Of a stretch of 54,111 bases of DNA, positions 37,329-54,111 are shown one piece after another; position 1 is the stretch's first letter; each line of letters begins with the position of its first letter. A model generated the notes under the pieces. That model was not told where the DNA came from, searched no databases, and saw only the letters and a program-made list of their open reading frames with translations. The DNA is from Alphaproteobacteria bacterium (GTDB lineage: Bacteria; Pseudomonadota; Alphaproteobacteria; Rhodospirillales; Rhodospirillaceae): positions 1 through 54,111 of the forward strand of contig JAURPI010000026.1 in assembly GCA_030835385.1 (NCBI GenBank), read 5' to 3'. The position numbers and the translations under genes were made by a program.

Positions 37329-37345
37329 ATCAGGGAGTGTCGACC

Positions 37346-38437
37346 CTAGAGCCACAACTGGGTGACGATATCCGCAGCCGATGCCCAAGTTTTACGGCGC
37401 TCAATGGCAGAGGCCGTTTCATTGAAGGAAGCGTACACGCCATCATCCGTCAAAAGTTGCAACGCGACGTTTGCAAAGGCCTCATCGTCTGGAACTATGA
37501 AACCCGTTTGCCCGTTGTCGACGACATCTTCCACACCGCCTAATCCACGGGCGACGGCAGGAAGGCCAGATGCCTGACTGTCACGCAAAGTCCAGCATGC
37601 GAAATCACGGGCATGCCCCGGATACAAATGAACTCGAGACCGTCGATACTCTTCCGCCATGATACGATCACCCTTAGGGGCGGACACTTCAACATTCGCG
37701 TCAGCACAAGCTTTGACCAACTCCAAAACCGGTTGAATTGGTTCAGGAACGTCTTCGCCGGCCATTCCCTTTGCCAGCACCGATGAATACACAGTCAATT
37801 TGGCATCTGCTTTTGCTGGATTTATTTTGTCGTGCCATAGTTCAAGGATATTGGAAAGTCCGTGCTGGGGATGCGTTGTCACAATGGCGCGGGGCGGTGG
37901 CAGTTCTTCTTGTTCTTCAGCCTTCTCCGTCTCATCAAGCGGAATCGCTGGGTGATTGGCATCAGGATAAGGGTCTGCGCCGGACTTTTCAGGGAAGAAC
38001 GACTTCGTCACCCCTGGCGGCGCGACTACGGCCGAAAGACGTCCGCCGTAGTCAGCTGCTTGGCGCTCGGTAAGAAACAAAAGTCTCGGCGCATAAGAGG
38101 CCAAGAGGTCAGCGTTGTGGGTGTTCCCTAAATATTTGGGGTCACCTGGCACCCAGAGCACCCGGGTATCAACCCGGCGCACACCGCCAAGCAACTCAGG
38201 GTTTCTCAGAGCAATAAGAACGTCAGCCTCTTGGGGTCGCGTGCTATCCCAAGGCCGCCAGCGCGCGCCCTCAGCCATGAGAGCGTGCTTACAGCGATTG
38301 GTGACTGTGACTGTGTGGCCGGCCTTGGCAAGGGCACCGGCAAGGGCGGCAAACGCCTTCTCCGCTCCACCCAACGGCTTGGTCGCCGCAGTGAACCCGT
38401 CAAAAGGCACAGAGTCATCAAACATCACGATATTCAT
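37346..38437 (-). CDS. Glycosyltransferase (GT4 family)
   Basis: A 363-residue glycosyltransferase of family 4. The N-terminal domain contains the KPLGGAEKAFAALAGALAKAGHTVTV segment, a typical GGxE...L...L...GHxV start. The donor domain has PPPRAIVTTHPQHGLSNILELW, then YRRSRVHLYPGHARDFACWTLRDSQASGLPAVARGLGGVEDVV, which carries the acid residues and Gly of the nucleotide-sugar loop. An acidic insert (about 160-180, ETEKAEEQEELPPP) separates the domains. It leads the three-glycosyltransferase run and is divergent from ygfZ (138 bases apart). Its product is probably cytoplasmic or membrane-associated and acts in LPS or exopolysaccharide assembly. Substrates are not known. Confidence 0.87.
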   Translation of the reverse strand: MNIVMFDDSVPFDGFTAATKPLGGAEKAFAALAGALAKAGHTVTVTNRCKHALMAEGARWRPWDSTRPQEADVLIALRNPELLGGVRRVDTRVLWVPGDPKYLGNTHNADLLASYAPRLLFLTERQAADYGGRLSAVVAPPGVTKSFFPEKSGADPYPDANHPAIPLDETEKAEEQEELPPPRAIVTTHPQHGLSNILELWHDKINPAKADAKLTVYSSVLAKGMAGEDVPEPIQPVLELVKACADANVEVSAPKGDRIMAEEYRRSRVHLYPGHARDFACWTLRDSQASGLPAVARGLGGVEDVVDNGQTGFIVPDDEAFANVALQLLTDDGVYASFNETASAIERRKTWASAADIVTQLWL

Positions 38438-38575
38438 GGCTGCGGTTTATACCCGGCTCGGGGAAAAAGTTCCAAACAAACAACACGTTTTGTCGGGCTT
38501 TTCCTTGCCCTCCCACATTTAGGGACTACATTCGATGACATAACGAATAGCCCTGACAGCAAGACATAAACAGCA

Positions 38576-39508
38576 ATGGCCTCTTCACACTTTACGATCC
38601 TGGAAAACCGGGCCGTTCTCTCGGTTTCTGGCGTTGATTCCGTCAGTTTCCTACAGGGCTTGGTGTCCAACGACGTAGAACAGGTTTCCGAGACGAAAGC
38701 TATTTGGGCCGCTTTCTTGACGCCCCAAGGCAAGTTTCTCCACGAATTCATGGTTGCCGGCAGACCAGACAGATTGCTCTTGGACTGTGAGGCTGATCGC
38801 CGCGATGACCTATTCACCCGGCTCAAACGCTATCGCCTGCGCTCCAAGGTCGAAATTGAGGACGAAGACAATCTGGTTGTCGCCGCAGCGTGGGGCGATA
38901 CCCCGACCGACGCCTTCACCTTATCGGATGAAAAGGGTGCCGCGGCTCTCTTGGATGACGGCTTTGTTTTTCGTGACCCCCGATTGATCCAAGCGGGTCT
39001 CAGACTCATTGGTTCATCAAGCACGATTGAAAAGACGTGTGCGGACCCTGGATTCACTCCTTCTGATCAGGCCACTTATGACGCTCATCGCATTGCGCTC
39101 GGACTACCCGATGGCAGTCGCGACCTAGAAATTGAAAAAGCGTTACTCCTTGAGAACGGTTTTGAAGAACTTGGCGGTGTCGATTTTCAAAAGGGATGCT
39201 ATGTGGGTCAGGAATTGACAGCACGGACTCATTATCGCGCATTAATAAAGAAGCGATTGTTGCCCGTACGTATTGAAGGTGACGCTCCGCCACCCGGAAC
39301 TGCATTATCGGTTAACGGCATAAACGCAGGAGAGATGAAATCATCGTCCGGCGCACATGGCCTAGCACTGGTTCGGCTGGCGACATGGCAGTCAGCATCT
39401 GATGGGCAAATGACCGGCGGAGGCGCAACACTACGCCCTGAACCAACACCTTGGATAAAACTCCCAGCGCTGGCTGAGAAACAAACGAAAACAGAGTTTT
39501 CTAATTAA
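38576..39508 (+). CDS. ygfZ: YgfZ/GcvT-family folate-binding protein
   Basis: A 310-residue YgfZ-like protein (also called IBA57 family). The hallmark motif KGCYVGQE is at 206-213, with Cys208 invariant; VSGVDSVSFLQGLVSNDV at the N-terminus and FLTPQGKFLHEF belong to the same fold. YgfZ acts with folate in assembling or repairing Fe-S clusters in certain radical-SAM enzymes such as MiaB. The ATG has AGCAA upstream, a weak ribosome-binding site. The gene converges with ppdK and overlaps it by four bases. Nothing is odd in it. Confidence 0.94.
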   Translation: MASSHFTILENRAVLSVSGVDSVSFLQGLVSNDVEQVSETKAIWAAFLTPQGKFLHEFMVAGRPDRLLLDCEADRRDDLFTRLKRYRLRSKVEIEDEDNLVVAAAWGDTPTDAFTLSDEKGAAALLDDGFVFRDPRLIQAGLRLIGSSSTIEKTCADPGFTPSDQATYDAHRIALGLPDGSRDLEIEKALLLENGFEELGGVDFQKGCYVGQELTARTHYRALIKKRLLPVRIEGDAPPPGTALSVNGINAGEMKSSSGAHGLALVRLATWQSASDGQMTGGGATLRPEPTPWIKLPALAEKQTKTEFSN

Positions 39509-42396
39509 CTTTTGGACCTCTCAGCCAAAGCCGCTTGTGCCGCCGCAAGTCGAGCCACAGGCACCCGATAGGGTGAACAGGATACGTAGTCGAGCCCGAC
39601 TTCCTGACAGAACGCTATGGAGTCCGGATCACCACCATGCTCCCCGCAAATACCGAGCTTGATGTTTTCCCGTGTCTTACGGCCACGCTCAGCAGCTATC
39701 TCGATGAGTTCGCCGACACCTTCACGATCCAATGTGGCAAAAGGATCGCGTTCGTAGATTCCTGTGGCCGTGTAGACCTCTAGCACCGGAGCGCAATCGT
39801 CCCGAGACATGCCGAGGGTTGTTTGTGTGAGATCGTTGGTGCCGAAGCTAAAGAATTCTGCCGTTTCAGCGATATCACCGGCACGTAACGCGGCTCGAGG
39901 TAATTCGATCATGGTACCGACAACGTAATCGACTTTTTTGCCACTCTTCTCAAATACGTCCTGTGCGGTCTCGTCGACCACCGTCTTCATCAATTCCAAT
40001 TCAGCTTTGGTGCCAACCAGCGGGATCATGATTTCTGGAAGCACATCCGCGCCGCCGCCTGACACGTCTACAGCCGCTTCAAAGATCGCCCTGGCCTGCA
40101 TAGCGTAAATCTCTGGATAGGTGACACCCAATCGGCAGCCGCGGTGTCCAAGCATAGGATTCAATTCAGCCAATCGATTAAGAGCGTTGTGAACGGTTTC
40201 AATGGACACACCGGCTGACTCGGCTACCTCCGTAATCTCAGCATCGCTGTGGGGCAGAAACTCGTGCAGAGGCGGATCAAGTAAGCGCACGGTCACTGGA
40301 AGCCCTGCCATAATTTTGAACAGCTTAATGAAGTCGTCGCGCTGATAAGGCAGCAGCCGGTTCAGAGCAGCTGTCCGCCCGCCCTCGTCCGCAGCGAGGA
40401 TCATATGGCGAATGCTAATGATACGCTCTTGATCGAAAAACATATGTTCGGTGCGACAGAGGCCGATGCCCTCAGCGCCAAATTTCAACGCCTTATCCGC
40501 ATCCACAGGGGTTTCTGCGTTTGCCCGCACTTTGAGACTTCGGATTTCGTCGACCCATTCCATCAGGGTGCCAAAGTCACCCGTCATCTCAGGTTCGATC
40601 GTTGCAACCCGACCGACAAATACTTCGCCGGTTGAACCATCAAGCGTGAGCACGTCGCCCTCGTAGAGCATTTCATCTCTAACACGCAGGAATTTTTCCT
40701 TGGCATCGACCTGAATTTCTCCAGCACCCGATACACAAGGTGTTCCCATGCCGCGTGCAACGACCGCCGCGTGACTGGTCATGCCGCCACGCGTCGTCAA
40801 AATACCTTCGGCTACGTGCATACCACCAATATCTTCTGGGCTGGTCTCCCGGCGTACCAAGATGACCCTCTCACCTTTTTTCACCCAGTCTTCGGCCTCC
40901 TCAGCTGTGAATACAATCTTCCCTGCCGCCGCGCCCGGTGACGCTGGTAAGCCACGGGAAAGAAGAGTGCGTTGGGCATTAGGGTCGAGGGTCGGATGCA
41001 ACAGTTGATCCAATTGCGCCGGATCGATACGCGCGACAGCTTCTTCTTTGGTGATGAGCCCCTCGTTGGACATGTCGACTGCGATTTTCAAAGATGCCTT
41101 TGCCGTCCGTTTGCCACCGCGGGTCTGCAGCATCCAGAGCTTACCCTTCTGGATCGTGAACTCCATGTCCTGCATATCGCGATAATGACGTTCGAGCTTG
41201 TCGCGCACAGCGACCAACTCCTCGTACATTTTGGGCATTGATTCTTCCATTGCTGGAAGCGTGGAATCCTGCGCGTCCTTCCCAACAATGGTGATCTGCT
41301 GAGGAGTGCGGATGCCGGCAACAACATCCTCGCCTTGGGCATTGACCAAGTATTCGCCGTAGAATTCGTTATCGCCGTTCGATGGATCGCGAGAGAAACA
41401 AACGCCGGTCGCGCAATCCTCTCCCATGTTGCCGAACACCATAGACTGCACGTTTACAGCAGTACCCCAGGCATCAGGGATATCATGCAAAGAGCGATAG
41501 GTAATCGCCCGCTGATTCATCCAGCTTCCAAAGACTGCGCCTACAGCACCCCACAATTGGTCTTGTGGGTCTTGAGGAAAGGCCGCACCGGTGTCTCTCT
41601 CGACTGTCTCTTTGTATGCCAGCACCAATTCTTTGAGATCATCCGCCGTCAAGCCCGTATCTTGATCAACCCCTTTATCCTCTTTTGCCAAATCGAGAAG
41701 TTCTTCAAAGGTGTAATGGTCGACGCCCAACACGACATCGGAATACATTTGAATGAATCGCCGATAACTGTCGTAGGCAAAACGCGGATCCCCAGAATGT
41801 TGAGCGAGGCCCTCAACAGTTGCGTCGTTCAAACCGAGATTGAGGACCGTGTCCATCATCCCGGGCATTGATGCGCGTGCGCCAGAGCGCACAGACACAA
41901 GCAACGGATTGCTGGGGTCTCCAAACTTTGCGCCAATTGTTTCTTCAATGCGTCGCAAGCCCTCATTGACCTGATCTTTCAAATCGGAGGGATAAACGCG
42001 GTCATGGTCGTAGAAGTAAGTGCAGACGCCAGTTGTAACTGTGAATCCGGGCGGCACGGGTACACCGATGGCACTCATTTCGGCCAGGTTCGCCCCCTTG
42101 CCTCCCAGGAGATCTCTCATCTCCGCTCGGCCATCCGCTTCGCCGTCACCAAAGAAATAAACCCACTTCCTATCCGACGGTGCGCTAGCAGCGCTGTCAC
42201 CTGCTGACGGATATAGGTCAGGCCTGAGATCACTGCGGGTCACCTTGCCACCGGTTGCTTCTTCTACGGCGATCACCCGCTCGGCCGGAACACGATCCCA
42301 CTGGCTGATGGCTTGCGGCGTCACATTGATGGTTCGCGCCAAAGCCGCCGTGCCGCCGGCTGCATCGATTGCTGTTTCTAAGGCTGTATCGCGCAT
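39505..42396 (-). CDS. ppdK: Pyruvate phosphate dikinase with N-terminal YdaS/Cro-like HTH domain
   Basis: A 963-residue enzyme that interconverts pyruvate and phosphoenolpyruvate with ATP and Pi. Residues 76-963 are a complete PPDK: ATP-grasp start (KWVYFFGDGEADGRAEMRDL and LLGGKGANLAEM), catalytic His in GGMTSHAAVVARG (about 535), and the C-terminal PEP-binding domain with GLCRTEHMFF and ICGEHGGDPDSIAF. Residues 1-63 are additional: AIDAAGGTAALARTINVTPQ then AISQWDRVPAERVIAVEEATGG, a YdaS/Cro-like helix-turn-helix, with a linker at 64-75. No start codon lies between HTH and enzyme, so the fusion is real. Sites upstream (42419-42483) may be its own operator. It converges on ygfZ. Confidence 0.95.
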   Translation of the reverse strand: MRDTALETAIDAAGGTAALARTINVTPQAISQWDRVPAERVIAVEEATGGKVTRSDLRPDLYPSAGDSAASAPSDRKWVYFFGDGEADGRAEMRDLLGGKGANLAEMSAIGVPVPPGFTVTTGVCTYFYDHDRVYPSDLKDQVNEGLRRIEETIGAKFGDPSNPLLVSVRSGARASMPGMMDTVLNLGLNDATVEGLAQHSGDPRFAYDSYRRFIQMYSDVVLGVDHYTFEELLDLAKEDKGVDQDTGLTADDLKELVLAYKETVERDTGAAFPQDPQDQLWGAVGAVFGSWMNQRAITYRSLHDIPDAWGTAVNVQSMVFGNMGEDCATGVCFSRDPSNGDNEFYGEYLVNAQGEDVVAGIRTPQQITIVGKDAQDSTLPAMEESMPKMYEELVAVRDKLERHYRDMQDMEFTIQKGKLWMLQTRGGKRTAKASLKIAVDMSNEGLITKEEAVARIDPAQLDQLLHPTLDPNAQRTLLSRGLPASPGAAAGKIVFTAEEAEDWVKKGERVILVRRETSPEDIGGMHVAEGILTTRGGMTSHAAVVARGMGTPCVSGAGEIQVDAKEKFLRVRDEMLYEGDVLTLDGSTGEVFVGRVATIEPEMTGDFGTLMEWVDEIRSLKVRANAETPVDADKALKFGAEGIGLCRTEHMFFDQERIISIRHMILAADEGGRTAALNRLLPYQRDDFIKLFKIMAGLPVTVRLLDPPLHEFLPHSDAEITEVAESAGVSIETVHNALNRLAELNPMLGHRGCRLGVTYPEIYAMQARAIFEAAVDVSGGGADVLPEIMIPLVGTKAELELMKTVVDETAQDVFEKSGKKVDYVVGTMIELPRAALRAGDIAETAEFFSFGTNDLTQTTLGMSRDDCAPVLEVYTATGIYERDPFATLDREGVGELIEIAAERGRKTRENIKLGICGEHGGDPDSIAFCQEVGLDYVSCSPYRVPVARLAAAQAALAERSKS

Positions 42397-42437
42397 ATCC
42401 GTCCCATTTTCGTCAAATGTAAGCTACCGGCAGATAT

Positions 42438-42457
42438 GTAAGTTAAGCCCAACTTAC
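42438..42457. promoter_or_regulatory. Palindromic operator candidate upstream of ppdK
   Basis: GTAAGTT-AAGCCC-AACTTAC is a perfect 7-6-7 inverted repeat, 42 bases upstream of the ppdK ATG. Further GTAAG / CTTAC half-sites lie at 42419-42423, 42475-42479, 42479-42483 and 42559-42563. The spacing resembles the operators of Cro-type proteins, and the gene product itself carries such a domain, so autoregulation is a natural hypothesis. Confidence 0.55.
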
Positions 42458-42522
42458 GAAAGCCGTGCGGAAGCCTTACTTACAAATCTGGGCCGTGAAA
42501 AGACGAAAAATGCCATAGTTCT

Positions 42523-42550
42523 GGGATTTCTAAAGAATCCCCAAGATTCT
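42523..42550 (-). terminator. Overlapping hairpins between glyS and ppdK
   Basis: Two stems share bases and exclude each other: GGGATT / AATCCC (42523-42528 with 42536-42541) and AGAATC / GATTCT (42534-42539 with 42545-42550, loop CCCAA). On the minus strand the second is followed by only TTT, so termination of glyS would be weak. It might act as an attenuator between glyS and ppdK. Confidence 0.35.
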
Positions 42551-42592
42551 GGGACAGTGTAAGCCCGGATTGGTGGCTTCTGAACGGTCTAC

Positions 42593-44665
42593 CTAACCTT
42601 CAACGTTTGAGAAGACGGCAACTTGATCCATCGACTGGCCGATTCGAGCCAGTAAATTGAGATTTGCGATCCGCACTGCCGCGTCATCAGCGTTTACGGT
42701 CACATTTTCAAAGAAAACGTCCAGGGGCTGACGCAACGCCGCAAGGGATGACATAGCGACCGCAAAATCTTCTTTAGAGAGCGCCGCTGACACATCAGCC
42801 TCAATCCCACTCAAAGTGGCTGCGAGACCTTGGGCCTCTTGCTGCTCAAACACAGCCACATCAAATTCGCCCGCAAACGTCGCTTTGTCTTTCTTCTCTT
42901 CAATCCGAACAATGTTGGCCGCCCGTTTATAGGCCGTGAGTAGATTGGACCCATCGTCGCTCTCGAGAAATTTGGCCAACGCCTCAACACGCGCCATCAA
43001 CCGCACCAAATCATCTTCACCACCGACAGCGAACACGGCTGCAATCAGGTCATGCCGTGCTCCACGGTCTTTCAAATATACTTTGAGCCGGTCCGCGAAA
43101 AACGTGAGCAATTCCTGAATTAGAGTCTCTTGCTCGACCTTCAGAACCTTTCCATAGGCTTCATACGCTGAGGCGAACACATCTCTTAAGGTCAGACGAA
43201 GATCATTTTCGAGAATCAAACGGATCACACCTAAAGCAGCTCGTCTCAGCGCATAAGGGTCCTTCGAACCGGTTGGCTTCTGATCAATTCCAAAAAAGCC
43301 AACTAAAGTGTCGACCTTATCCGCGAGTGCAACGCATACGCTGGCTGGTGCTGACGGACAGGAATCTGACGGACCCAGCGGTGAATAGTGTTCAGCAATT
43401 GCGTTGCAGATACCTTCAGCTTCACGGTCTTGCTCGGCATAGTATCGCCCCATCAGACCTTGCAGATCAGGAAACTCGGCAACCATGCCGGTGGACAGAT
43501 CGGCTTTGCATAACTCTGCGGCACGCTTGGCATCGGCTACATCCACATTGCCGAGCTGCTTTGCCAATGACGCCGACAACACTTCTAGTCGGGTTACTTT
43601 TTCCCGAACGGTTCCAAGGTCAGCCTGGAACACGCGCTCACTTAGTTTATCAACACGACTTTCCAGTTTTTGTTGGCGGTCTTGATCCCAGAAAAACTTG
43701 GCGTCGGACAGCCGGGCGCGCAAAACACGCTCATTACCCACAATGATCGCTTTGCCGGCGTCGGGAGTTTCTATATTGGCAACCAATGCATATCTGTTTG
43801 AAAACGCTCCTGCACTGGTCTCCAGAGCGAAGTATTTTTGGTGCTTGCGCATGGCGGAGGTGAGAACCTCCGACGGCACATCCATAAAGTCATCGTCGAT
43901 GGTTCCCAATAAGGGGATCGGCCACTCGACAAGACCTGTGACCTCGTCCAGCAAACCGGAGTCTTCGGGTAAAGTCAAACCTTCGGACTTGGCCAACGAG
44001 GCAATACCATCGGCTATCATGTCACGACGACGGTCTTGGTCGATTACAACCTTCGCCGCCTCCAACTTCTTCAAATAATCGGCTGAATTGGCAACTGTGA
44101 TCGCGCCCGAAGACTGAAAACGATGCCCAACTGTTTCTGCACCGGCTGAAACGCCAGCAAAAGACACCGACACCACCGCACCGTCAAATAAGCATAAAAT
44201 GCCGTGGAGCGGTCGGACCCAGCGGGTGTCGCCTGACGCCCAACGCATAGATTTTGGCCAGGGCAAAGTAGCCAGCGCCGCTTCGATTAAGTCTTTTAGA
44301 ACTTCAGCCGTAGGGCGTCCTTTACGCTCGACCACCGCAAAGTAAAACTGACCCTTTGGTAAGTCGCGCACCTCAGCCTCGTCGACCGATGACAGACCGT
44401 TGGCTTTGAGAAACCCTTCAATGGCTTTCTCGGGCGCACCGACGCCAGGCCCTTTACGTTCATCTGTCACATCGGGCTGTGCCGTGGGCAGATCATCAAT
44501 AACAATGGTCAGGCGGCGTGGCCCAGCGAAGGCATTCAGGCTACCATAACTAAGACCAGCGTCTTTAAGGCCATCGACGATCAATCTTTTCAAGTCACCT
44601 GCGGCCCGCGTTTGCATGCGCGCCGGAATCTCTTCGGAAAGAAGTTCGAGTAAGAGCTCTGCCAC
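42593..44665 (-). CDS. glyS: Glycyl-tRNA synthetase, beta subunit
   Basis: A 690-residue beta subunit of the bacterial alpha2-beta2 glycyl-tRNA synthetase, which charges tRNA-Gly. The N-terminus MAELLLELLSEEIPARMQTR is the family signature. The middle (WGDTRWVRPLHGILCLFDG-type ASGDTRWVRPLHGI, then HRFQSSG) and DKVDTLVGFFGIDQKPTGSK with the YALRRAALGVIRL segment are present; the C-terminal anticodon-binding part contains FFENVTVNADDAAVRIANLNLL. Length fits the family. It follows glyQ by six bases, so both are made together in a fixed ratio. The following gap to ppdK (196 bases) holds hairpins and the operator-like repeat. Confidence 0.97.
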   Translation of the reverse strand: MAELLLELLSEEIPARMQTRAAGDLKRLIVDGLKDAGLSYGSLNAFAGPRRLTIVIDDLPTAQPDVTDERKGPGVGAPEKAIEGFLKANGLSSVDEAEVRDLPKGQFYFAVVERKGRPTAEVLKDLIEAALATLPWPKSMRWASGDTRWVRPLHGILCLFDGAVVSVSFAGVSAGAETVGHRFQSSGAITVANSADYLKKLEAAKVVIDQDRRRDMIADGIASLAKSEGLTLPEDSGLLDEVTGLVEWPIPLLGTIDDDFMDVPSEVLTSAMRKHQKYFALETSAGAFSNRYALVANIETPDAGKAIIVGNERVLRARLSDAKFFWDQDRQQKLESRVDKLSERVFQADLGTVREKVTRLEVLSASLAKQLGNVDVADAKRAAELCKADLSTGMVAEFPDLQGLMGRYYAEQDREAEGICNAIAEHYSPLGPSDSCPSAPASVCVALADKVDTLVGFFGIDQKPTGSKDPYALRRAALGVIRLILENDLRLTLRDVFASAYEAYGKVLKVEQETLIQELLTFFADRLKVYLKDRGARHDLIAAVFAVGGEDDLVRLMARVEALAKFLESDDGSNLLTAYKRAANIVRIEEKKDKATFAGEFDVAVFEQQEAQGLAATLSGIEADVSAALSKEDFAVAMSSLAALRQPLDVFFENVTVNADDAAVRIANLNLLARIGQSMDQVAVFSNVEG

Positions 44666-44671
44666 GACTTA

Positions 44672-45553
44672 CTACTCCCAGTCCGAGGCTTGGCTGATCA
44701 ACCAAGCTTCACAACAGGACTTCGCGAGAGCGCGGACACGACCAATGTAGGCGGCGCGTTCAGTCACACTGATCACGCCGCGCGCATCTAATAGATTAAA
44801 CGCATGGCTGGCCTTGATGCAGTGATCATATGCCGGCAATGCCAAATTGCTATTGAGCAAAGATTGGCATTCCGCCTCTGAGTCAGCGAAATGGCGCAAC
44901 AGCATTTCGGTGTTGGCATGCTCAAAGTTATGGGCGGAATACTCACGCTCGGCTTGCAAGAAAATGTCGCCGTAAGTCACACCATCATCGTTAAACGCTA
45001 GGTCATAGACTCGCTCAACACCCTGAACGTACATGGCCAACCGTTCGAGACCATAGGTCAACTCAACAGAAATAGGTGAGCAATCGATACCACCAACTTG
45101 CTGGAAGTAGGTAAATTGGGTGACCTCCATTCCGTCACACCAAACTTCCCAACCCAAGCCCCAAGCGCCGAGTGTCGGACTTTCCCAATCATCTTCGACG
45201 AAACGGATGTCATGAGCTAACGCATCAATGCCAATAGCCTTCAAACTGTCGAGATAGAGACCTTGAGAGTCCTCCAGAGACGGTTTGAGGATCACCTGAA
45301 ACTGATAGTAGTGCTGGAGCCGGTTCGGGTTTTCTCCGTACCGGCCATCAGTGGGTCGACGTGATGGCTGTACGTAGGCCGCTTTCCACGGCTTCGGGCC
45401 TAACGCCCGCAAGGTCGTGGCGGGATGAAACGTACCGGCACCCATCTCCATATCGTACGGCTGGAGAATGACGCACCCCTGCTCAGCCCAAAAGGACTGA
45501 AGCTTGAGTATGAGGCCCTGAAAACTGGGCGCCTGGGTCTGCGTGGCCGCCAT
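44672..45553 (-). CDS. glyQ: Glycyl-tRNA synthetase, alpha subunit
   Basis: A 293-residue catalytic subunit of the class II, heterotetrameric glycyl-tRNA synthetase. The start [20 protein letters not shown], then [23 protein letters not shown], is the motif region of the family; the ATP and glycine site includes [20 protein letters not shown] and, further on, [12 protein letters not shown]. Length is normal. It precedes glyS by six bases. Upstream, 127 bases without a gene separate it from a small membrane protein gene. Confidence 0.98.
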
Positions 45554-45680
45554 GGATAAAGTCCACTTGGTGTTAACTGATCACAAGAGACGAAAACCTC
45601 TTGGGCGGCGCAAGCTACTCGTCGATTCGGCTGGAATCAAGCACTCACCTTGGCTTAGCCACTTATCGCCAAAGCCAGAC

Positions 45681-45953
45681 TTAGGCCTGCATCGGGCAAT
45701 CTTTAGGCGCCCGCCCACAACCCGGGTTTAAACCAGTCGCCACATAAGCCCCACAACTGGGGCAAGCGGTCAGGTCCTCAACCTTTTCGGCGTTCTGATT
45801 TGATGTTTCATCAGCTGTGTCTTGCGTCTTATTTACGCGCGGTTTCGATCTAGGCTCTCCACCTGAAATCATATTTATTTTTCTGCAGATCCACCAAACG
45901 ACGGCAATCATGACAGCAGTAAAGAGGAGCTTCGAAAGGCTAAACCCGAACAT
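45681..45953 (-). CDS. Small membrane-anchored zinc-ribbon-like protein
   Basis: A 90-residue protein with one N-terminal membrane helix (LSKLLFTAVMIAVVWWICRK, residues 6-25), a charged linker, and a Cys-rich end, CPSCGAYVATGLNPGCGRAP then DCPMQA. The CPxCGxYV...CGR..DCP pattern is like a family of short conserved bacterial proteins of unknown function. The Cys pairs may bind zinc. It lies 11 bases after the S49 peptidase gene, so they are probably in one transcript and it might be a partner of that peptidase or of the membrane; this is inference. Confidence 0.8.
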   Translation of the reverse strand: MFGFSLSKLLFTAVMIAVVWWICRKINMISGGEPRSKPRVNKTQDTADETSNQNAEKVEDLTACPSCGAYVATGLNPGCGRAPKDCPMQA

Positions 45954-45964
45954 GAATACCTATC

Positions 45965-46834
45965 CTAAAGACCGAACCGTGCCCACAACGCGCGCTCCTC
46001 AGCTGCGGCAATGAGATCACGAGACCAATTCGTACCTGTCATCATGTCGGCCCCGCCGAATCGACGTTGTAGCCATCCTCCCTGCCGCTGAACTGGCATG
46101 AAGCGAACTTTTTCACCAAGCTTCTCTCTCATCACCGACCGCATCTCTCCCAGACCATCAACCAAGCCTTTCTTAATAGCCCGTTCGCCCGTCCAAACAT
46201 CGCCGTTAAAGAGAGTCTTGTCTGCACCTTTGAGTTTGTCGCCTCTGCGAGACTTTATGTAAGCCTTAAACTGCTCGTGAATGTCCTTTTGTAAATCGAG
46301 CAGGCGCTTGACATCGTCAGGGTTCTCCGCCTTGAACGGATCAAGCATACTTTTGTTGTCGCCTTGAGCATAAACACGACGCTCAACGCCAATTTTTTCA
46401 AGCAACTCTGGAAAACCAAACGTGGCAGCAATGACACCCACCGACCCAACAATAGACATGGGGTCCGCGTAAATCTCATCGGCTGAACACGCCAACCAAT
46501 ACCCGCCTGATGCTGCAACGTCCTCGGTAAACGCGTAGACCGGAATCTCTTTTTCATCGGACAACTGGCGAATACGACTTGCAATCAACGATGACTGCAC
46601 CGGCGACCCACCCGGTGAATTTATCTGGAGTGCAACAGCGCACACACCGCGCTTCCCAAACGCGCGGCGCAACGGCATCTCCAGAGAGGCCATATTCAAA
46701 CTGCGGCGACCGATGCCAGATGACATCCCTATTGCGCCGTTCAGTTTCACTACGCTCACAAGAGGTGAAGACCCCCGCACCATCGAGCCCCCGAAACGCG
46801 CCGCAAACTGATTAAAGTGACCAATAATTGCCAT
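45965..46834 (-). CDS. S49 family peptidase (SppA/SohB-like)
   Basis: A 289-residue serine protease of the signal-peptide-peptidase A family. The catalytic dyad is Ser109 in VAASGGYW and Lys161 in QGDNKSMLDPF. LQINSPGGSPVQS (69-81) is the substrate-positioning motif, and SIVGSVGVI another conserved strand. It has no strong transmembrane N-terminus in this start choice. I chose ATG 46834 because it lies after the stop of the upstream gene; in-frame codons extend to 46936 within that gene. The family degrades cleaved signal peptides or membrane proteins at the cytoplasmic membrane. Gene order with the methyltransferase and DUF2007 genes is typical of alphaproteobacteria. Confidence 0.92.
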   Translation of the reverse strand: MAIIGHFNQFAARFGGSMVRGSSPLVSVVKLNGAIGMSSGIGRRSLNMASLEMPLRRAFGKRGVCAVALQINSPGGSPVQSSLIASRIRQLSDEKEIPVYAFTEDVAASGGYWLACSADEIYADPMSIVGSVGVIAATFGFPELLEKIGVERRVYAQGDNKSMLDPFKAENPDDVKRLLDLQKDIHEQFKAYIKSRRGDKLKGADKTLFNGDVWTGERAIKKGLVDGLGEMRSVMREKLGEKVRFMPVQRQGGWLQRRFGGADMMTGTNWSRDLIAAAEERALWARFGL

Positions 46835-46865
46835 AGGCACAGCATAGACGCAGGAAACCAATAGG

Positions 46866-47615
46866 TTAAGAGACGAACTGTAACGCCTCTCCGCCTCTAA
46901 GAATGGCAGCTGCCTCATCGGTATAAGCATCGTCATCAGAATGAAGAACGAGACCAGGACTCAGGGTGGTCGGCGACTTGCGGTCCTTCAGGGCAGTGAC
47001 AATGACCCGCTTCGCCACCATATTCGCTTTGGGCCATAACGGGATTACCACAATGGATCCACAGCCGGACAACGCCTGAATAATATCAGCCAAACGCTCG
47101 GCCCGGTGAATAATAGAAAATTGCCCGCCTCGCTTTAGCAAGGACACACATTGCGTAATCCAATACCGGAGCGACAAATCTGTAACGGCGTGGGTAGCAT
47201 CTTGGCCTGGCCGATCGGGGACTGTTCCCACTTCAAAAAATGGAGGGTTGGTCATCACGGCGTCGCAGGCGCCGATCAACCTCTCAGGTGGCTTTGCTAA
47301 ATCACCAACAACGACCTCGGCCCGCGGTAAGAACTCATTTTCTTTGATGCCCCGTCGGGCCAAATCAGCGAAAGGTTCATGTTGCTCAAGCCCGATGCCA
47401 CGGACACCGGCTAAGCGAGACAACAGACAGAACAGGGCTGCGCCCGTTCCACACCCAACGTCTACAACGGTCGACCCAGGCGCCGGAGAGATCGACGCCG
47501 CCAACAGGACGGGGTCTATTGCTACACGGTACCCCTCCTCTGGCTGAACAATCTTGACCCGTCCGCCATGGAGCGTATCGACGGTGGGTATAGTCCCTAT
47601 AGCCTGAGGGGTCAT
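46866..47615 (-). CDS. N6-adenine methyltransferase, TrmN6-like
   Basis: A 249-residue class I methyltransferase. SAM binds at VDVGCGTG (51-58); NPPFF (123-127) is the catalytic motif IV of N6-adenine methylases. The family includes the enzyme that methylates A37 of tRNA1(Val) (TrmN6/YfiC), so tRNA modification is the most likely role. Others of the family methylate different RNAs. I set the start at ATG 47615, which overlaps the stop of the DUF2007 gene (ATGA); an in-frame codon at 47633 would run into that gene. The gene lies between the DUF2007 gene and the S49 peptidase gene in one direction. Confidence 0.88.
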   Translation of the reverse strand: MTPQAIGTIPTVDTLHGGRVKIVQPEEGYRVAIDPVLLAASISPAPGSTVVDVGCGTGAALFCLLSRLAGVRGIGLEQHEPFADLARRGIKENEFLPRAEVVVGDLAKPPERLIGACDAVMTNPPFFEVGTVPDRPGQDATHAVTDLSLRYWITQCVSLLKRGGQFSIIHRAERLADIIQALSGCGSIVVIPLWPKANMVAKRVIVTALKDRKSPTTLSPGLVLHSDDDAYTDEAAAILRGGEALQFVS

Positions 47616-47827
47616 TGAACATAATCGGGACAAATGGCACGTGCCACTTCAGTGGCGGGTTCGTAATCCTCGGCCAGCACCATAAGACGTCGAGGAAAAG
47701 GGTCTATGCCGCCATAGGTGCTCGAAATATCGCCATCAAATTCGAAGGCTTCGATACCTTCGGCGGACAAGGCAGCTTTAAGAGCCGACATCACGACAAT
47801 ATCAGTGGTGCGGATAAGTTCTTTCAT
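47612..47827 (-). CDS. DUF2007 family protein
   Basis: A 71-residue protein beginning MKELIRTTDIVVMSALKAAL. DUF2007 proteins are small and act as predicted signal-transducing or regulatory partners, with no known target. The start at ATG 47827 is supported by the family's usual MKELLRTND-like N-terminus; upstream in-frame codons to 47938 overlap the promoter of the divergent synthase. It is coupled by overlapping stop and start to the methyltransferase gene. The pattern is conserved in alphaproteobacteria next to a polyprenyl synthase. Confidence 0.88.
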   Translation of the reverse strand: MKELIRTTDIVVMSALKAALSAEGIEAFEFDGDISSTYGGIDPFPRRLMVLAEDYEPATEVARAICPDYVQ

Positions 47828-47968
47828 GGGCTGCACGGTGAGGCCTGATGCCAAAAATGGCAAGACCCTGGGAATGCGGCTTGGTTGCTCCACCACAACG
47901 AGGCCCTTATGCTTTGTAGCGGAAGGGCCAGGCGGCAAAATTCAGAACAAAGAAAAGGGTAGTCTCTC

Positions 47969-48988
47969 GTGGCGACCATCGTTCAACTAGATAACAGACG
48001 GGCCGGACCGGCCGAACCACTCGATGCGCTGATTGCGCTCGTGGAAGACGATCTCAAGGCTGTCAATCAAACGATTGTCGACCGGATGCACAGCCCGGTC
48101 GCACTGATTCCTCAATTGGCCGGACACATTGTTGCAGCCGGCGGCAAGCGGTTACGACCCCTCCTCACCCTGGCCGCAGCAAAATTGTGCGGGTACACAG
48201 AGAAACGCCACATCAAATTGGCGACCTGTGTTGAATTCATACACACGGCAACGCTGCTCCACGATGACGTGGTGGATGACAGTGAGTTGCGCCGTGGACA
48301 ATCCAGTGCCAACGCGTTGTGGGGCAATCAGCCCAGCGTGCTCGTAGGGGATTTTCTTTTCAGTCGTGCCTTCGAACTGATGGTTGAAGACGGATCACTC
48401 AAAGTGCTGGGCATTCTTTCTGGTGCGTCTTCGATTATCGCTGAAGGCGAAGTCCATCAGTTGATGACAACCAACGACACAGAAACCAGTGAGGCGCAGT
48501 ACCTAGAAGTGGTTCAGGCGAAAACCGCAGAATTGTTTGCTGCCGCGTCTCGTATCGGTGCGGTCGTTGCCGACCGGCCTGAAGTGGAAGAAGAAGCACT
48601 GCAAGTCTATGGGCTTAATCTCGGCATCGCTTTTCAACTCATTGACGACGTACTCGACTATTCAGCGAAGCAGGCTGAACTCGGCAAAACGATTGGTGAT
48701 GATTTCCGCGAAGGAAAAATCACTTTGCCTGTCATTCTTGCCTTCCGCCGTGGGGATGATGATGAACGCGCCTTTTGGCATCGCTGTCTTCACGACCTTG
48801 AACAAGGTGACGAAGAACTCTCGCACGCGCTCAGCCTTATGGAAAAACATGGCAGCCTGACCGACACCATTCATCGGGCTCAGCACTACGGTGATGTTGC
48901 GCGAGACGCGCTCGGTATCTTCCCAGACAGCCCGGTAAAGACAGTCCTCATCGACATCATCGATTTCTGTATAAAACGGGCCTACTAA
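47969..48988 (+). CDS. ispB: Long-chain polyprenyl diphosphate synthase
   Basis: A 339-residue trans-prenyltransferase that builds the octa-, nona- or decaprenyl tail of ubiquinone from farnesyl diphosphate and isopentenyl diphosphate. Both Asp-rich motifs are present: LLHDDVVDD (DDxxD at 99-103) and QLIDDVLDY (about 222). GGKRLRP (59-65) binds isopentenyl diphosphate. Chain length cannot be read from the sequence. It starts at GTG 47969, with AAGGG about ten bases upstream, and is divergent from the DUF2007 gene (141 bases). The tRNA-Pro gene follows 97 bases downstream. Confidence 0.93.
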   Translation: MATIVQLDNRRAGPAEPLDALIALVEDDLKAVNQTIVDRMHSPVALIPQLAGHIVAAGGKRLRPLLTLAAAKLCGYTEKRHIKLATCVEFIHTATLLHDDVVDDSELRRGQSSANALWGNQPSVLVGDFLFSRAFELMVEDGSLKVLGILSGASSIIAEGEVHQLMTTNDTETSEAQYLEVVQAKTAELFAAASRIGAVVADRPEVEEEALQVYGLNLGIAFQLIDDVLDYSAKQAELGKTIGDDFREGKITLPVILAFRRGDDDERAFWHRCLHDLEQGDEELSHALSLMEKHGSLTDTIHRAQHYGDVARDALGIFPDSPVKTVLIDIIDFCIKRAY

Positions 48989-49085
48989 GCCACAGCTACG
49001 GACACATCTTGCGCCAAAACTAGGCCAGCGGTATAAGCCGGACCGCGTACCACCCACCTTATGAAGTTGGTGATCGACGCCGGGA

Positions 49086-49162
49086 CGGAGTGTAGCTCAG
49101 CCAGGTAGAGCACTGCCTTCGGGAGGCAGGGGCCGGAGGTTCGAATCCTCTCACTCCGACCA
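49086..49162 (+). tRNA. tRNA-Pro (anticodon CGG)
   Basis: A full cloverleaf with encoded CCA. The acceptor stem is CGGAGTG / CACTCCG, the anticodon stem CTGCC / GGCAG closes loop TTCGGGA with anticodon CGG at 49120-49122, the T arm is GGAGGTTCGAATCCTCT, and the discriminator is A. C1-G72 and the CGG anticodon identify tRNA-Pro. Immediately 3' the sequence turns A+T-rich and leads to a defence operon, so its 3' end may be an integration site. Confidence 0.97.
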
Positions 49163-49722
49163 ATTAAACATTTAAAATCAATAACTTAAGAATCAGGCAA
49201 ACTCGTCTGATTTGCTTCATGGTGTTCTGGTGGTGCTGCTTTTTTCGCGCATAAAAATGAAGACGTCACACTTCAATGAAGCGTCTCTTCAGTGGTCTTT
49301 ACAGAAAGCATGCGAATCGCGTCGATCACCTTTAACTAAGCCCGCTCGCCACCTGCATCACCATCGTCTAGTAGTCTATCTGCCCGGCCTGCCGCACCGG
49401 GCTCGACCTCCGCTACTTGCGATCGAATATGCACCTTAAAGGCATATTGCTATAGGACACTTGCTCGTAAAGTTTTCGGCACGGATTACTCGGAAAACCA
49501 AGCCTGTTTGAATTATTGATCTTATTGGTGGGCGCACAAGAGCTCGAACCTAATGTCCGTTAATTAAGCTTAAGAAAGCAAAGATGGTCAAAAACGAATG
49601 ACGATCAGAAAGGGCCGCAAATCAGAGCCTTTGATACAATTACAATATCGCCAGATTTGTCATCTGGCTCTCTGTTTTCGGACTGAAGTGCATCACAGTT
49701 AATAAATAGAAGGTTAGGATTC
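49163..49722. other. Gene-poor spacer between tRNA-Pro and the defence operon
   Basis: I find no convincing gene in these 560 bases; a 75-codon plus-strand ORF (49212-49439) has no recognisable features. There are several hairpins: GCCAGAT-TTGTC-ATCTGGC (49650-49668), a small GCCCGG/CCGGGC one (49382-49402), and GTTAGG-ATT-CCTAAC (49713-49727), which spans the stop codon of the ATPase gene and is followed on the minus strand by a T/A-rich run, a possible weak terminator. Such spacers commonly mark the margin of an integrated island. No integrase gene or direct repeat of the tRNA end was seen inside the window. Confidence 0.5.
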
Positions 49723-52700
49723 CTAACTCAGTTCCTTGTCAATAAAACCTAACGTGTTCGCGTTTTCAAGAAGCGTCCTCGATTTACCCTTATCAATCCC
49801 ACCTGGGACATCTGCATCTATCTCCAACTTTATCTCTACTGACGCACCAGCTATCGTTGTGAGCTGTTCAATTATGCCCTCAACGACCTGATGAATCTCT
49901 TTGGCAGGCCTGTCTGACGAAATCATAACAGCGCCTAAAAACCTAGTAGGTAGTTTTTCATCATCAACTGTTTCAGGCTTATCACTTGGTGGTCTATCAC
50001 CAAATCCGTCAGGTTCAGGGCCGTCACCAAAATCATCGCCAGCTTCTTCAGGAATTTTTGGCAAGTGTGCCTCAGCGATTGCTGGCCGGACAATCATAGA
50101 CTCCCCGTCAATCACGACCGGTACCGCGGCCTGCTTAATTGCAATCCCGGCATAGGTTCGGTTTTCTTCATCCCATCGCTCTGCGTAAGCGAAGGGGCCA
50201 GGTATCATTCCACTAATGGAAGCCAAAACAGTCTTGGTCAACACATCACTATTCTTAAGTCGTGGTAGATAGTTATATCGATTCAGATACTCCCACAGGT
50301 CTTTCAAAAGTATGTGATCTTTTCCATTCCATATGTATTTTTGCAGTTCTCTATCTAGACGCGCTGGCCCTAACTCAGGCAACAGCCCCTCATCACTTAC
50401 TAGCTTCTTGCTCGCTCTGGACAATAGCCCATCCTGCGCTGAAATTTTCGCGGTAATCCATTCGACCTCAGCTTGGGCATTATCTTGCCAAGGATAAATG
50501 AGATAACACCAAGCTTCCTTCAGGCGTGTCTTGATCGTCTCACTTGCCTCATTGGATTTAGCCTTGGCCAATGCGCTATCGCTTTGAGTAAGATTCAGGC
50601 GCTCGGTTTCGCGAACAATCTCTGCCCAGGCGAGCGAAGCGCGCATGGCTTCTTTTAGGTTATCAATCTGGCGCATCTCGGCCGCAAAAAACACAAGGGT
50701 ATTCCGATTGATCCGCGATGTTGTTCCACGCTGCAGCAGAATATCTTTGGCCTCTGTCATTGCGTTTGAGCCGTCACGGCCTGAGTGCGGATGTGCTACA
50801 CCTAAAACAACTGCGCGAACACCGCCAGGTTCGTCGGGAACGTCAGCGGACGTACCAGGTGTTACTTGAACTGTGTCAAAGTGCCCTCTATCAGTAATTC
50901 CATTGATATAGGTTGCGAGCGTCTTGTCTATTTCGACCAAGACCAGTGCTTCGTCTAACTGCTGAGCTCGGTCTGAAGCAATCCGATTTAGGCTGGCAGA
51001 CATGGAATACCAGTAGCGACCTAGGTCACTATGCATAAACTTTGCTTGGTTGGATAAACGCCTGAGAGCATCACTAAAAATCGCTGGCCGTTCGCCAGGT
51101 TGCACAACACCGAGATTTATTTGCTTGTCATCCAAACCCTTGTTCTCTTGACCTTTCATAGGCGCCGTCCCCATAAAGATGGAGCGCGCCACACGGCGTG
51201 TTGCGGAATAACGATTCAGGTTAGGTGCAGCTTGATCTATTTTATAAGGCGTAGAAGAGGCACCATCCACATCAGCAGCAATAATTGACTGCCAGGTAAC
51301 ATCCAAATAGTGAAGCAGTTCCGGCTCTACACGAGCTGAACTGATAGCCATACTGCCTGGCATAATCATTACTGATGGGTCATTGTTCATCCATAGTTCG
51401 TGAATAACCTGAGCCATCAGGCGAAGCACACCCCGTGTCCGCTGAAATTTTTCAAGTGAACCCCAACCTGTGTAAAGCTGATCGAAAAGCTCAGGATGAA
51501 TAGGGTAAGCTTTTTCTAACTTTCGACGGTAATCCTCATCTGCGCACCCTTGGGGAAAGTCGTTTGAGTTGTCACGGTATAGTTTGCCAAACTGCTTTAA
51601 CGTGTTGTCTCTATGATGAAACCTGTCTCCAGGAATTTCCTTGAAAAGGCGGCGCCGAACGATCTCGTAGCTCTCATCCTGTGATGCTGGACGCCAAGGC
51701 GACTCAACCCTTGAGAATGTCTGCTTTAAGCGTGTTAAAGCCTCTTGACCTCCTTCCCCCCCAACTTCAATTTGGGAGGCAGGCAATGACGCCACGAGCA
51801 GGGTGCCAGGACTCGCTTTAACTGCCTCTGTGAGAGACTGTACGAATGAAAGATTAGCATCAAAGGAACCAGAGGGCAGGCCATCTACTTTGTAAATCTG
51901 GCGAAGATAAGCTACCCATTCGTCTATGAGTATTAAGCACGGCGCGCACTTCTTAAAAAGCTCTTCCAGTAAATTCGAGCCAGGCGCAATCCCCTTAGCA
52001 TCGTTTTCCGCAACCATCTTAAATGCGTCTTCGCCGCCTAGTTGCCACGCGAGTTCCCCCCATGTGGTTCGAACTTCTTGCCCATCTTTAAGCTTAATTA
52101 TATCCTGTGGGCCTCTAGAAGTGCCTACGAGTACAGCCCGCCCCACCTTATCGGGCACTGTTAAATCGTTCATAGATAGCAGTTGATCAAGGCCGGAAAG
52201 ATCATCTGTAGGAGCGCTACCGATCATGTGATATAGCGCCAACATTGAATGAGTTTTACCTCCCCCAAAGTTTGTTTGCAGTTCAACAACCGGATCACCG
52301 CCGGAATTGGAAAATCTTTTTGCAGCGCCGACTAAGAGAGTGCTGAGACCATCTGTAAGATACGTCCTACTAAAAAATTCACGCGGGTCTCTATACTCAG
52401 ATGGTGCACTTCCGTTATGCACTTTGCCTAGGTCTGCAGCAAACTCTGCCTGCTGGAATTCACCGGTAGCCACATCCTGATGTGGCTCTACTACTTCGCG
52501 CCACGGCATTAAACCAGCAACCGTTTCGACTGAAATCTCAGACTTTTGAGATTTCTTGCGTTCCTCATTCCGCTGAAGTTCTGTGAACTTTGTGCGTAAG
52601 ATCGTATCACGCATCTTACTTAGTTGATTCGCTGTCTCTCCGGCACTGATTGCGTCCATCAATCGCCTCATAGAGTCTAGAGCTCGCTCAGCGTCGTCGT

Positions 52701-53010
52701 ACGAGAACGACTCATTGTGTGACAGCTTGTTGCGAACCATAACAAGTTCATTGACGAGTGATCGTTCCGCCCGACCAAGTACTGCTTTGAACGCGTCTAC
52801 CCAGAATCGATCGATGACATTGAACAAAGCGTGCTGGTCCCATCCAAACTGTCCGTTCTTGCCAGCACGAAGGCTAGGCAGTTTTTCGGATACTTGGGCC
52901 TGCCAATGTCCAGTTAAAGAACTTTCAAGCCGCTTTTCGACAAACGGGACTAGTGCTTCTGGGAGGAGCTCCATTCCCTCAAAAACTGTCTGTCGTGCGC
53001 TCTTCGCCAT
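49723..53010 (-). CDS. DUF499 AAA+ ATPase with N-terminal Swt1-like HEPN domain (anti-phage associated)
   Basis: A 1095-residue protein in two parts. Residues 1-125 look like the Swt1-type HEPN domain: helix FNVIDRFWVDAFKAVLGRAE, then MVRNKLSHNESFSYDDAERA, which has the RxxxxH motif Arg93-Asn-Lys-Leu-Ser-His98 of HEPN RNases. The rest is DUF499 (COG1483), an AAA+ ATPase: P-loop TNFGGGKTHS (246-255), DEWVAYLR in the Walker B region with Asp363-Glu364, and a long C-terminal part. An acidic, low-complexity stretch (about 1000-1040) precedes a small C-terminal domain. DUF499 proteins occur with DUF1156 methyltransferases in predicted defence islands. Start ATG 53010 is 12 bases after the upstream stop; its ribosome site TAGGAG overlaps that stop. 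Confidence 0.92.
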   Translation of the reverse strand: MAKSARQTVFEGMELLPEALVPFVEKRLESSLTGHWQAQVSEKLPSLRAGKNGQFGWDQHALFNVIDRFWVDAFKAVLGRAERSLVNELVMVRNKLSHNESFSYDDAERALDSMRRLMDAISAGETANQLSKMRDTILRTKFTELQRNEERKKSQKSEISVETVAGLMPWREVVEPHQDVATGEFQQAEFAADLGKVHNGSAPSEYRDPREFFSRTYLTDGLSTLLVGAAKRFSNSGGDPVVELQTNFGGGKTHSMLALYHMIGSAPTDDLSGLDQLLSMNDLTVPDKVGRAVLVGTSRGPQDIIKLKDGQEVRTTWGELAWQLGGEDAFKMVAENDAKGIAPGSNLLEELFKKCAPCLILIDEWVAYLRQIYKVDGLPSGSFDANLSFVQSLTEAVKASPGTLLVASLPASQIEVGGEGGQEALTRLKQTFSRVESPWRPASQDESYEIVRRRLFKEIPGDRFHHRDNTLKQFGKLYRDNSNDFPQGCADEDYRRKLEKAYPIHPELFDQLYTGWGSLEKFQRTRGVLRLMAQVIHELWMNNDPSVMIMPGSMAISSARVEPELLHYLDVTWQSIIAADVDGASSTPYKIDQAAPNLNRYSATRRVARSIFMGTAPMKGQENKGLDDKQINLGVVQPGERPAIFSDALRRLSNQAKFMHSDLGRYWYSMSASLNRIASDRAQQLDEALVLVEIDKTLATYINGITDRGHFDTVQVTPGTSADVPDEPGGVRAVVLGVAHPHSGRDGSNAMTEAKDILLQRGTTSRINRNTLVFFAAEMRQIDNLKEAMRASLAWAEIVRETERLNLTQSDSALAKAKSNEASETIKTRLKEAWCYLIYPWQDNAQAEVEWITAKISAQDGLLSRASKKLVSDEGLLPELGPARLDRELQKYIWNGKDHILLKDLWEYLNRYNYLPRLKNSDVLTKTVLASISGMIPGPFAYAERWDEENRTYAGIAIKQAAVPVVIDGESMIVRPAIAEAHLPKIPEEAGDDFGDGPEPDGFGDRPPSDKPETVDDEKLPTRFLGAVMISSDRPAKEIHQVVEGIIEQLTTIAGASVEIKLEIDADVPGGIDKGKSRTLLENANTLGFIDKELS

Positions 53011-53022
53011 TTAATCAGACTC

Positions 53023-54111
53023 CTACAAGTCAAGCTGCGTCTGACCATCACGGCGGACGTCATGTATCGTTTCAGCCAAGCGTGTTAGCTCAGTCCATAC
53101 GGCAATCAGAGTGTTATAGGATACAGCTTCCTTCGCATCATTTCGCTTGTTGGAACAAAGGTCGTAGAGGCAGTAGGCAAGGTCTTTAACTGCTTCTGCT
53201 TTTTCACTTCCATATTTTTTTAGAAGAATTGCGGCTTCATACTCACCTTCGTTCTCCAACGCCCTGATGAGATATTGGCAACACTCCCAAATCGTCAAAT
53301 GAGTATCGGTTTCGGGCTCCCAATCGTCTAAAAGCTCTTGCCGCTTTAGAATACGTACTTTGCCAGCTGCGCTCTCAACAATCCCAGCGTGCTTTACACT
53401 ATCAACTGCGATTCCCCTCGCCTGCGCTATGTTATTTGCCGTACCGAAATCGCCTTTTTCCATTCCGTATTGCTCGAACCAAGTGATTGCAAAACGCGTA
53501 TCAGCATCAAATTCCCCTTGTATTCCGCCAAGGTAATCGTCCAGCTCCTGATTAATGAGCTGAAGTGCGGTTTTGACACTCATTGGGCTGTCATTGCTCT
53601 CTAAAACGGAATTGTATCGAGAGAATATTCCCATGCCTGGCCCTATGGCAGACTGTGGCATGTCGGCAGGAGCAATATTGGCAGACTGTAGCTCAGCTAT
53701 CCCAGACGGCAATTCGCGCTTAAGCGCTCGAATAAATTCTGCGCGACTAATACTTTCAGCAGCTAGTTCCCTCTTACGGCAAACCAACACTACAGAGTTG
53801 GCGAGGGCATTAGCTCCAGACGCAATCATTCGATTAGAGAGTTCTGTCCGGAGGGGCCAAGTGCCGACCACGGCAAACCCCGCCCTAAGTATCGCGTCTA
53901 GGAAAGTTGCCCATCCCTTAGATGTAACGCCCTCGGTGCTGACTTCGCTTTGTTTGAAAGCATAGTATATCGTCGTTGGAAAACTCTCTGATGCATTCAT
54001 GGCCATACCTCGAATTGCTTCAGTCATTCCATCGAGAAAATGCTTTTCTGCGTGGCTTTTAGTTCTATGCCGGAACTGCGAGGCTACCAATTCGTCAGAT
54101 TTGGGTGCTGA
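53023..54111 (-). CDS. DUF1156 adenine-specific DNA methyltransferase, C-terminal part (runs off window)
   Basis: The last 362 residues of a larger protein; the frame stays open to the window edge (SAPKSDELVASQFRHRTKSH), so the true start lies beyond 54111. DUF1156 proteins (COG1743) are predicted adenine-specific DNA methylases of 900-1000 residues. The visible KSDELVASQFRH, TTIYYAFKQSE, AGFAVVGTWPLRTELSNRMI then ASGANALANSVVLVCRKRE segments match the C-terminal half of the methylase fold and the tail that follows; the catalytic DPPY-type motif must be upstream. It is directly upstream of the DUF499 gene, 12 bases apart, so both are one operon. Its role would be to mark or modify host DNA, inferred from the family. 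Confidence 0.88.
   Translation of the reverse strand, partial: SAPKSDELVASQFRHRTKSHAEKHFLDGMTEAIRGMAMNASESFPTTIYYAFKQSEVSTEGVTSKGWATFLDAILRAGFAVVGTWPLRTELSNRMIASGANALANSVVLVCRKRELAAESISRAEFIRALKRELPSGIAELQSANIAPADMPQSAIGPGMGIFSRYNSVLESNDSPMSVKTALQLINQELDDYLGGIQGEFDADTRFAITWFEQYGMEKGDFGTANNIAQARGIAVDSVKHAGIVESAAGKVRILKRQELLDDWEPETDTHLTIWECCQYLIRALENEGEYEAAILLKKYGSEKAEAVKDLAYCLYDLCSNKRNDAKEAVSYNTLIAVWTELTRLAETIHDVRRDGQTQLDL

Follow-up and report, generated by a model that had tools for sequence, protein, structure and literature searches.

Loci that pair a DUF499 AAA+ ATPase with a DUF1156 DNA methylase have been described under several names. The Hma system (HmaABC) was named in 2021, in a paper that makes no mention of HEPN in its main text (PMC8565338). 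The Type-1 BREX-related (BR) systems, described in 2026, combine a DUF499 ATPase, a DUF1156 N6-methylase and a helicase-nuclease, and a HEPN fusion was recorded in 1370 of 2446 Type-1 BR taxa; DUF3780 and an HKD helicase were given as partners in Type-2 BR, and BREX BrxC and Type-3 BREX were reported to have a related AAA+ core (PMC12839542). A HEPN-AAA+ fusion of the Ava_2192 type, accompanied by a SNF2-DUF3883 helicase, was known by description in 2013 (PMC3710099). The window analysed here, 54,111 bp in length, is the entire contig C14 (JAURPI010000026.1) of a Rhodospirillaceae genome. At its end it carries two genes on the minus strand, hmaC (49723–53010) and the 3′ part of hmaB (53023–54111), the latter cut by the contig end. 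This locus is probably the promoter-distal end (the hmaB 3′ part plus hmaC) of a HEPN-fused Type-1 BR/Hma system, lying in an accessory block that starts where a tRNA-Pro(CGG) gene has its 3′ end. The HEPN fusion itself is already described, in 2013 and 2026; only the tRNA-Pro setting is fresh.

Gene identities at the contig end

The identities and the order of the two genes were observed directly. HmaC is a complete HEPN(Swt1)-DUF499 AAA+ ATPase of 1095 aa with an ATG start. The PADLOC HmaC model matched it with an E-value of 2.1e-282 (937.7 bits, profile positions 3–938 of 941), while the PADLOC DUF499 model scored 135 bits on the same protein. Pfam placed DUF499 (PF04465) in it above the cut-off (E 2.5e-33) and HEPN_Swt1 (PF18731) over residues 12–122 (52645–52977(−); E 5.5e-27). 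For the methylase fragment, the last 362 residues of a DUF1156-type DNA methylase whose reading frame is open at the contig end, the PADLOC HmaB model gave an E-value of 3.8e-136 (profile positions 612–962 of 973).

Relatives of HmaC were collected by a scan of genome collections that gave 91 confirmed stretches; the best 80 of the 91 were used and correspond to 79 distinct loci, of which 64 are full-length. Many of these relatives bear alphaproteobacterial names, and the best are 78–79% identical over the whole protein. In the relatives the gene order is hmaA-hmaB-hmaC. The gap between hmaB and hmaC in the window is 12 bases (53011–53022), and in 53 of 64 relatives' loci it measures 9–15 bp. 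The initial annotation had described a DUF499-type ATPase gene with the 3′ part of a DUF1156 methylase gene 12 bases upstream and in the same direction, and had taken the pair for a defence module. Both genes are as it described them, and the comparison with PADLOC that it proposed named the pair HmaC and HmaB, in agreement with a defence module. That reading is nevertheless incomplete, as it overlooked the HEPN fusion, which is a Type-1 BR/Hma trait.

The locus thus agrees with the Hma system (PMC8565338) in HmaC over its whole profile, in HmaB up to the contig edge and in the gene order of its relatives; it differs in that the PADLOC HmaC profile starts at residue 167 of the protein, so that the HEPN domain lies outside it. 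With the HEPN-fused Type-1 BR variant (PMC12839542) it shares the HEPN and DUF499 ATPase, the DUF1156 N6-methylase and, in its relatives, the helicase-nuclease. The visible parts show no difference from that variant, and searches of the assembly did not recover the helicase gene.

The methylase fragment has no match to the Pfam profile for DUF1156 (PF06634), because that domain is N-terminal; in the complete homologue of locus L057 it was found at residues 13–79 (E 2.6e-27). Hence, of the two profile matches foreseen by the initial annotation, that of PF04465 to the ATPase held, while that of PF06634 held for the complete homologue and not for the fragment. The fragment is 57.6–74.1% identical to the HmaB proteins of the relatives, apart from those of L073, L074 and L077 (39–45%). 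DPPY and PCQ motifs indicate the kind of methylation. DPPY was present in 56 of 57 long HmaB relatives and [PS]PC[QN] in none of the 57; in the L057 protein DPPY lies some 36 residues upstream of the point matching the window's cut, and is therefore outside the fragment. The motifs of the relatives, like the PADLOC-DB label, point to adenine methylation, whereas HmaB was labelled an m5C methylase in the text of PMC8565338. In Mesorhizobium sp. Root552 a single ORF of 1467 aa (L018:5587–9990) matches HmaB in its last 362 residues; this locus has no separate hmaA ORF, and the long ORF is perhaps a fusion that followed a deletion.

The boundary at tRNA-Pro and contig C28

A tRNA-Pro(CGG) gene detected by ARAGORN (49086–49162(+)) has its 3′ end facing hmaC and is the probable integration site. 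The homology with sister species stops here, as could be seen directly: matches to G005, G003, G002 and G006 end no more than one base from the tRNA 3′ end, while the other six genomes of the genus all have the left side (a polyprenyl synthetase gene, then tRNA-Pro). The G+C content is about 0.54 to the left of the tRNA and falls to about 0.48 on its right, and the spread of HmaC is patchy (at E ≤ 1e-50, one of seven genomes of the genus and four of 98 relatives, the own genome counted). The accessory block whose left margin had been proposed in this region does indeed begin between tRNA-Pro and the ATPase gene, in a segment (49163–49722) with no gene assigned to it. This segment includes a hairpin at 49650–49668(+), and a second, weak one lies at the hmaC stop codon; the three terminator-like sites found in 49000–50000, compared with a mean of 1.0 (sd 1.2) in shuffled sequence, are not clearly above chance.

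The first 119 bases of the segment around the tRNA, 49019–49137(+), are identical to the end of C28, another contig of the same genome. The C28 sequence differs at 49138 and 49148, matches once more up to 49165, which is three bases beyond the tRNA, and is divergent from there on. The two differing bases form one pair of the T-stem, G-C on C14 and A-T on C28, so that both tRNAs stay paired. An A-T pair at this position was found in five of six genus relatives. The assembly consists of 47 contigs, the smallest of 3086 bp, in a bin rated 99.6% complete and 2.3% contaminated. Its 94 contig ends include three pairs that overlap by exactly 141 terminal bases and one more that overlaps by 119; the other overlaps range from 42 to 140 bases. 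The default k-mer list of MEGAHIT includes 119 and 141, and a k-mer assembler may produce overlaps of these two lengths where its graph branches. From the 119-base overlap between C28 and C14 we infer a branch after tRNA-Pro, with the accessory block on one arm and the flank of an empty site on the other. This overlap suggests that the accessory block is an island integrated at tRNA-Pro, and that the sampled population perhaps holds both occupied and empty sites.

C28 looks like an ordinary right flank of tRNA-Pro, where neighbours vary between species, because its sequence also follows tRNA-Pro in G002 and G004: the part about 3.4 kb past the C28 tRNA recurs 128 bases past tRNA-Pro in G002 and about 10.6 kb past it in G004.

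The overlap could also arise without a mixed population, if the tRNA-Pro region were duplicated in one chromosome, with the block between the copies and C28 being the second copy, or if C28 came from another strain in the bin. Two close tRNA-Pro copies do occur in four genomes of the family (G015, G027, G033 and G035), and the contamination rating of the bin leaves room for a second strain. On the other hand, ARAGORN found one tRNA-Pro each in the fetched stretches of G001–G006, the distance from the end of C28 to the first difference is exactly 119 bases, and the terminal overlaps of 141 and 119 bases fit branch points of an assembly graph, though those of 42–140 bases occur as well. We regard a duplication or a second strain as possible, if doubtful.

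Integration at tRNA genes was also looked for in the other loci. A tRNA is present in nine of the 79 relatives' loci, and only in L019 does it lie within 1 kb past hmaC, a count that is too low in that several of the loci end soon after hmaC; as a rule, Hma loci do not seem to adjoin a tRNA. Of the nine tRNA-bearing loci, eight were searched (L075 was left out) for another copy of the tRNA 3′ end, and none has one. In L019 the gene is a tRNA-Ser (10086–10175(−)) about 280 bp past the end of hmaC, and its 3′ end faces hmaC, which is the geometry of the window. As to mobile replicons, 92 out of 72,556 plasmid records have a relative of HmaC at E ≤ 1e-50; among 50,697 phage records, searched at E ≤ 1e-5, there is none. 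In the sister species G003 a gene with an HTH_17 domain (L117:2236–2535(−); E 3.8e-10), perhaps coding for an excisionase, lies 88–387 bases past tRNA-Pro and near a contig end; in view of this gene, insertions at tRNA-Pro may have recurred within the genus.

Left of the tRNA, the initial annotation had all genes as housekeeping. Ten nearby genes (35266–48988) were tested: eight match Pfam families of metabolism, translation, cell envelope or peptidases at E ≤ 1e-10, and the other two have no match at that limit. One gene in this region codes for a pyruvate phosphate dikinase of 963 aa (39505–42396(−)) with an N-terminal YdaS/Cro-like helix-turn-helix (YdaS_toxin profile, residues 6–64, E 3e-21). 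Its 77-residue N-terminal piece matched 13 of 41 genomes, including all seven of the genus, each time in an open frame of 965–1041 aa that may likewise code for a dikinase.

The HEPN domain and the AAA+ core of HmaC

Alignment of the relatives showed the HEPN and AAA+ motifs of HmaC to be intact, again a direct observation. In the HEPN R-x4-H motif (RNKLSH, 52717–52734(−)), R93 and H98 are shared by every one of the 64 full-length relatives. In the Walker A-type motif (NFGGGKTH, residues 247–254, 52249–52272(−)) the stretch from F248 to H254, including GGGKTH, is identical in all 64, and N247 in 62; in the Walker B-type motif (LILIDEWV, residues 359–366, 51913–51936(−)) D363 and E364 are identical in all 64. 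The mean identity to the window protein is 0.69 for the HEPN domain, 0.81–0.85 for residues 123–700 and 0.65–0.72 for the C-terminal parts. A homologue in G023 (C419:6700–9971; L113 and L114) is split over two adjacent frames that match query residues 6–413 and 414–1091.

Instead of an RNase effector, the HEPN domain might be a nucleic-acid sensor or a regulator of the AAA+ motor, given that eukaryotic Swt1 HEPN domains are thought to be inactive and to bind RNA; the same source lists the bacterial DUF499-fused version as active (PMC3710099). R93 and H98 are moreover invariant in a domain that is less conserved overall than residues 123–700, although the C-terminal parts are as variable as the HEPN domain. 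A purely sensory or regulatory role thus appears unlikely.

ORC/Cdc6 proteins form part of an MCM-loading complex. A Foldseek search with the HmaC structure model had as its top match a chain of such a complex (E 5.1e-3), followed by BrxC (E 8.3e-3); the two matches are weak (query TM 0.12–0.14). Of the 434 PDB matches with E ≤ 10 none passes 0.001, and no fold claim is drawn. At E ≤ 0.1, a sequence profile built from 33 HmaC proteins did not match any protein of solved structure. Unlike BrxC and Type-3 BREX, HmaC has a HEPN domain at its N-terminus; no PglZ gene was noticed, although no search for PglZ was made.

The remainder of the operon and its proposed function

PLD and HKD name the same domain, as do NOV_C and DUF3883. 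The HmaA of L011, the sole one scanned, is identified as such by PADLOC (1612 bits) and is a SNF2-type helicase with a C-terminal NOV_C domain (E 8.6e-21), that is, of the same kind as the SNF2-DUF3883 helicase that accompanies the Ava_2192-type fusion. The initial annotation had instead proposed to look for DUF3780, a DUF1998/YprA-type helicase and a PLD nuclease; DUF3780 and a helicase of the HKD type are the partners in Type-2 BR (PMC12839542). It had also placed the missing partners beyond base 54111. The contig ends at that base, and searches of the assembly did not bring up the rest: for HmaA only two short partial matches were obtained, on other contigs, with a search that rings in 14 of 14 control genomes; NOV_C had no match in the contigs; the search of the genome for the remaining HmaB returned just the known piece; and the contig end has no second copy in the genome. 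The simplest reason is that a short or unbinned contig is missing, because the smallest of the 47 contigs is of 3086 bp.

That the locus is a decayed remnant, in which hmaC and the end of hmaB survive while hmaA and the start of hmaB are truly lost in the organism, would account for these negative searches in a genome rated nearly complete. We consider this improbable: hmaC is intact, motifs included, the hmaB piece is open and relative-like right up to the contig end, and with such a size of the smallest contig, short or unbinned contigs are out of view. A Type-2 BR system, with DUF499, DUF1156 and DUF3780 and a PLD or YprA helicase, would account for DUF499 and DUF1156, which are common to the BR subtypes. 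It is nevertheless very unlikely: the HmaC model far outscores the DUF499 model on the ATPase, an N-terminal HEPN is reported for Type-1 (PMC12839542), hmaA and hmaB overlap by four bases in nine of 58 relatives, with no room for a gene between, and DUF3780 had no match in the genome, in a search lacking a positive control (none of 14 control genomes rang).

The gap between hmaA and hmaB exceeds 150 bp in 44 of 58 relatives' loci, a count in which L052 and L054 were misassigned (gaps near −9.7 kb) and to which, from the gene table, both would probably add. Among the inserts scanned at this place, one from the largest family, seen in 17 loci, codes for a TmtA-like protein; GmrSD and DUF4917 genes were found as well, and one insert matches PADLOC HEC-07 (1.2e-179). 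These variable insertions were considered as a new finding and rejected, as 'Hma-embedded candidates', the known embedded genes of Hma loci, are already described in PMC12988326 and one of the inserts is HEC-07. L046 has a Schlafen AlbA_2 gene between hmaB and hmaC. A family present in 22 loci, often directly upstream of hmaA, has a WYL domain in the one member scanned (L011:2247–3176) and is a candidate regulator.

Read in the light of the published families (PMC3710099, PMC12839542), the system, here a putative defence against phages, would work as follows. HmaB, as an N6-adenine methylase, would mark host DNA. HmaC, as a BrxC/ORC-like AAA+ ATPase, would join HmaB and the helicase-nuclease HmaA in a scanning complex on DNA that lacks the mark, and HmaA would then cut this DNA. 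The HEPN domain of HmaC would serve as a conditional last-resort RNase that halts or kills the cell if restriction fails. A fuller proposal is that this HEPN-armed Hma rides on an integrative element that segregates or excises at tRNA-Pro(CGG) and carries a tRNA 3′ end of its own, in which the T-stem is compensated, HmaC being both scanner and RNA-cutting executioner; taken as a whole it is tentative, and we would not expect all of its parts to hold.

Several points weigh against an Hma system on an island at tRNA-Pro. Searches of the assembly recovered neither HmaA nor some 60% of HmaB, and the complete operon was not seen. The NCBIfam models DUF499_antiphage (169.8 of 1200 bits for the ATPase) and DUF1156_antiphage (20.9 of 1000 bits for the methylase fragment) score far below their cut-offs, as is expected if they describe another subtype, the methylase being in addition merely a fragment. 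The HmaC structure model is moderate (mean pLDDT 67, pTM 0.37). No integrase was identified, and no profile search aimed at one was made; the far end of the block lies outside the assembly. The G-C pair of the T-stem could be an old allele and not supplied by the island: G001, the sixth genus relative, lacks HmaC but has the G-C pair, which many genomes outside the genus have as well, so that the pair alone is no proof of island supply. The C28 flank is common to just two of six genus relatives, starts to be so only about 3.4 kb past the C28 tRNA, and was not seen in the stretches compared from G001, G005, G006 and G009, which cover about 5.9 to 14.2 kb beyond the tRNA; the stretches from G003 and G029 are short.

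Being incomplete, the locus does not settle the working of the Hma system. It is a further example of a HEPN-fused Hma locus, and it shows the DUF3780/HKD-type partners to be those of another subtype. The conservation of its HEPN and AAA+ motifs agrees with the proposal, made in the literature, of a suicide RNase within HmaC, and the tRNA-Pro junction offers a concrete, testable case of Hma on a possibly mobile island.

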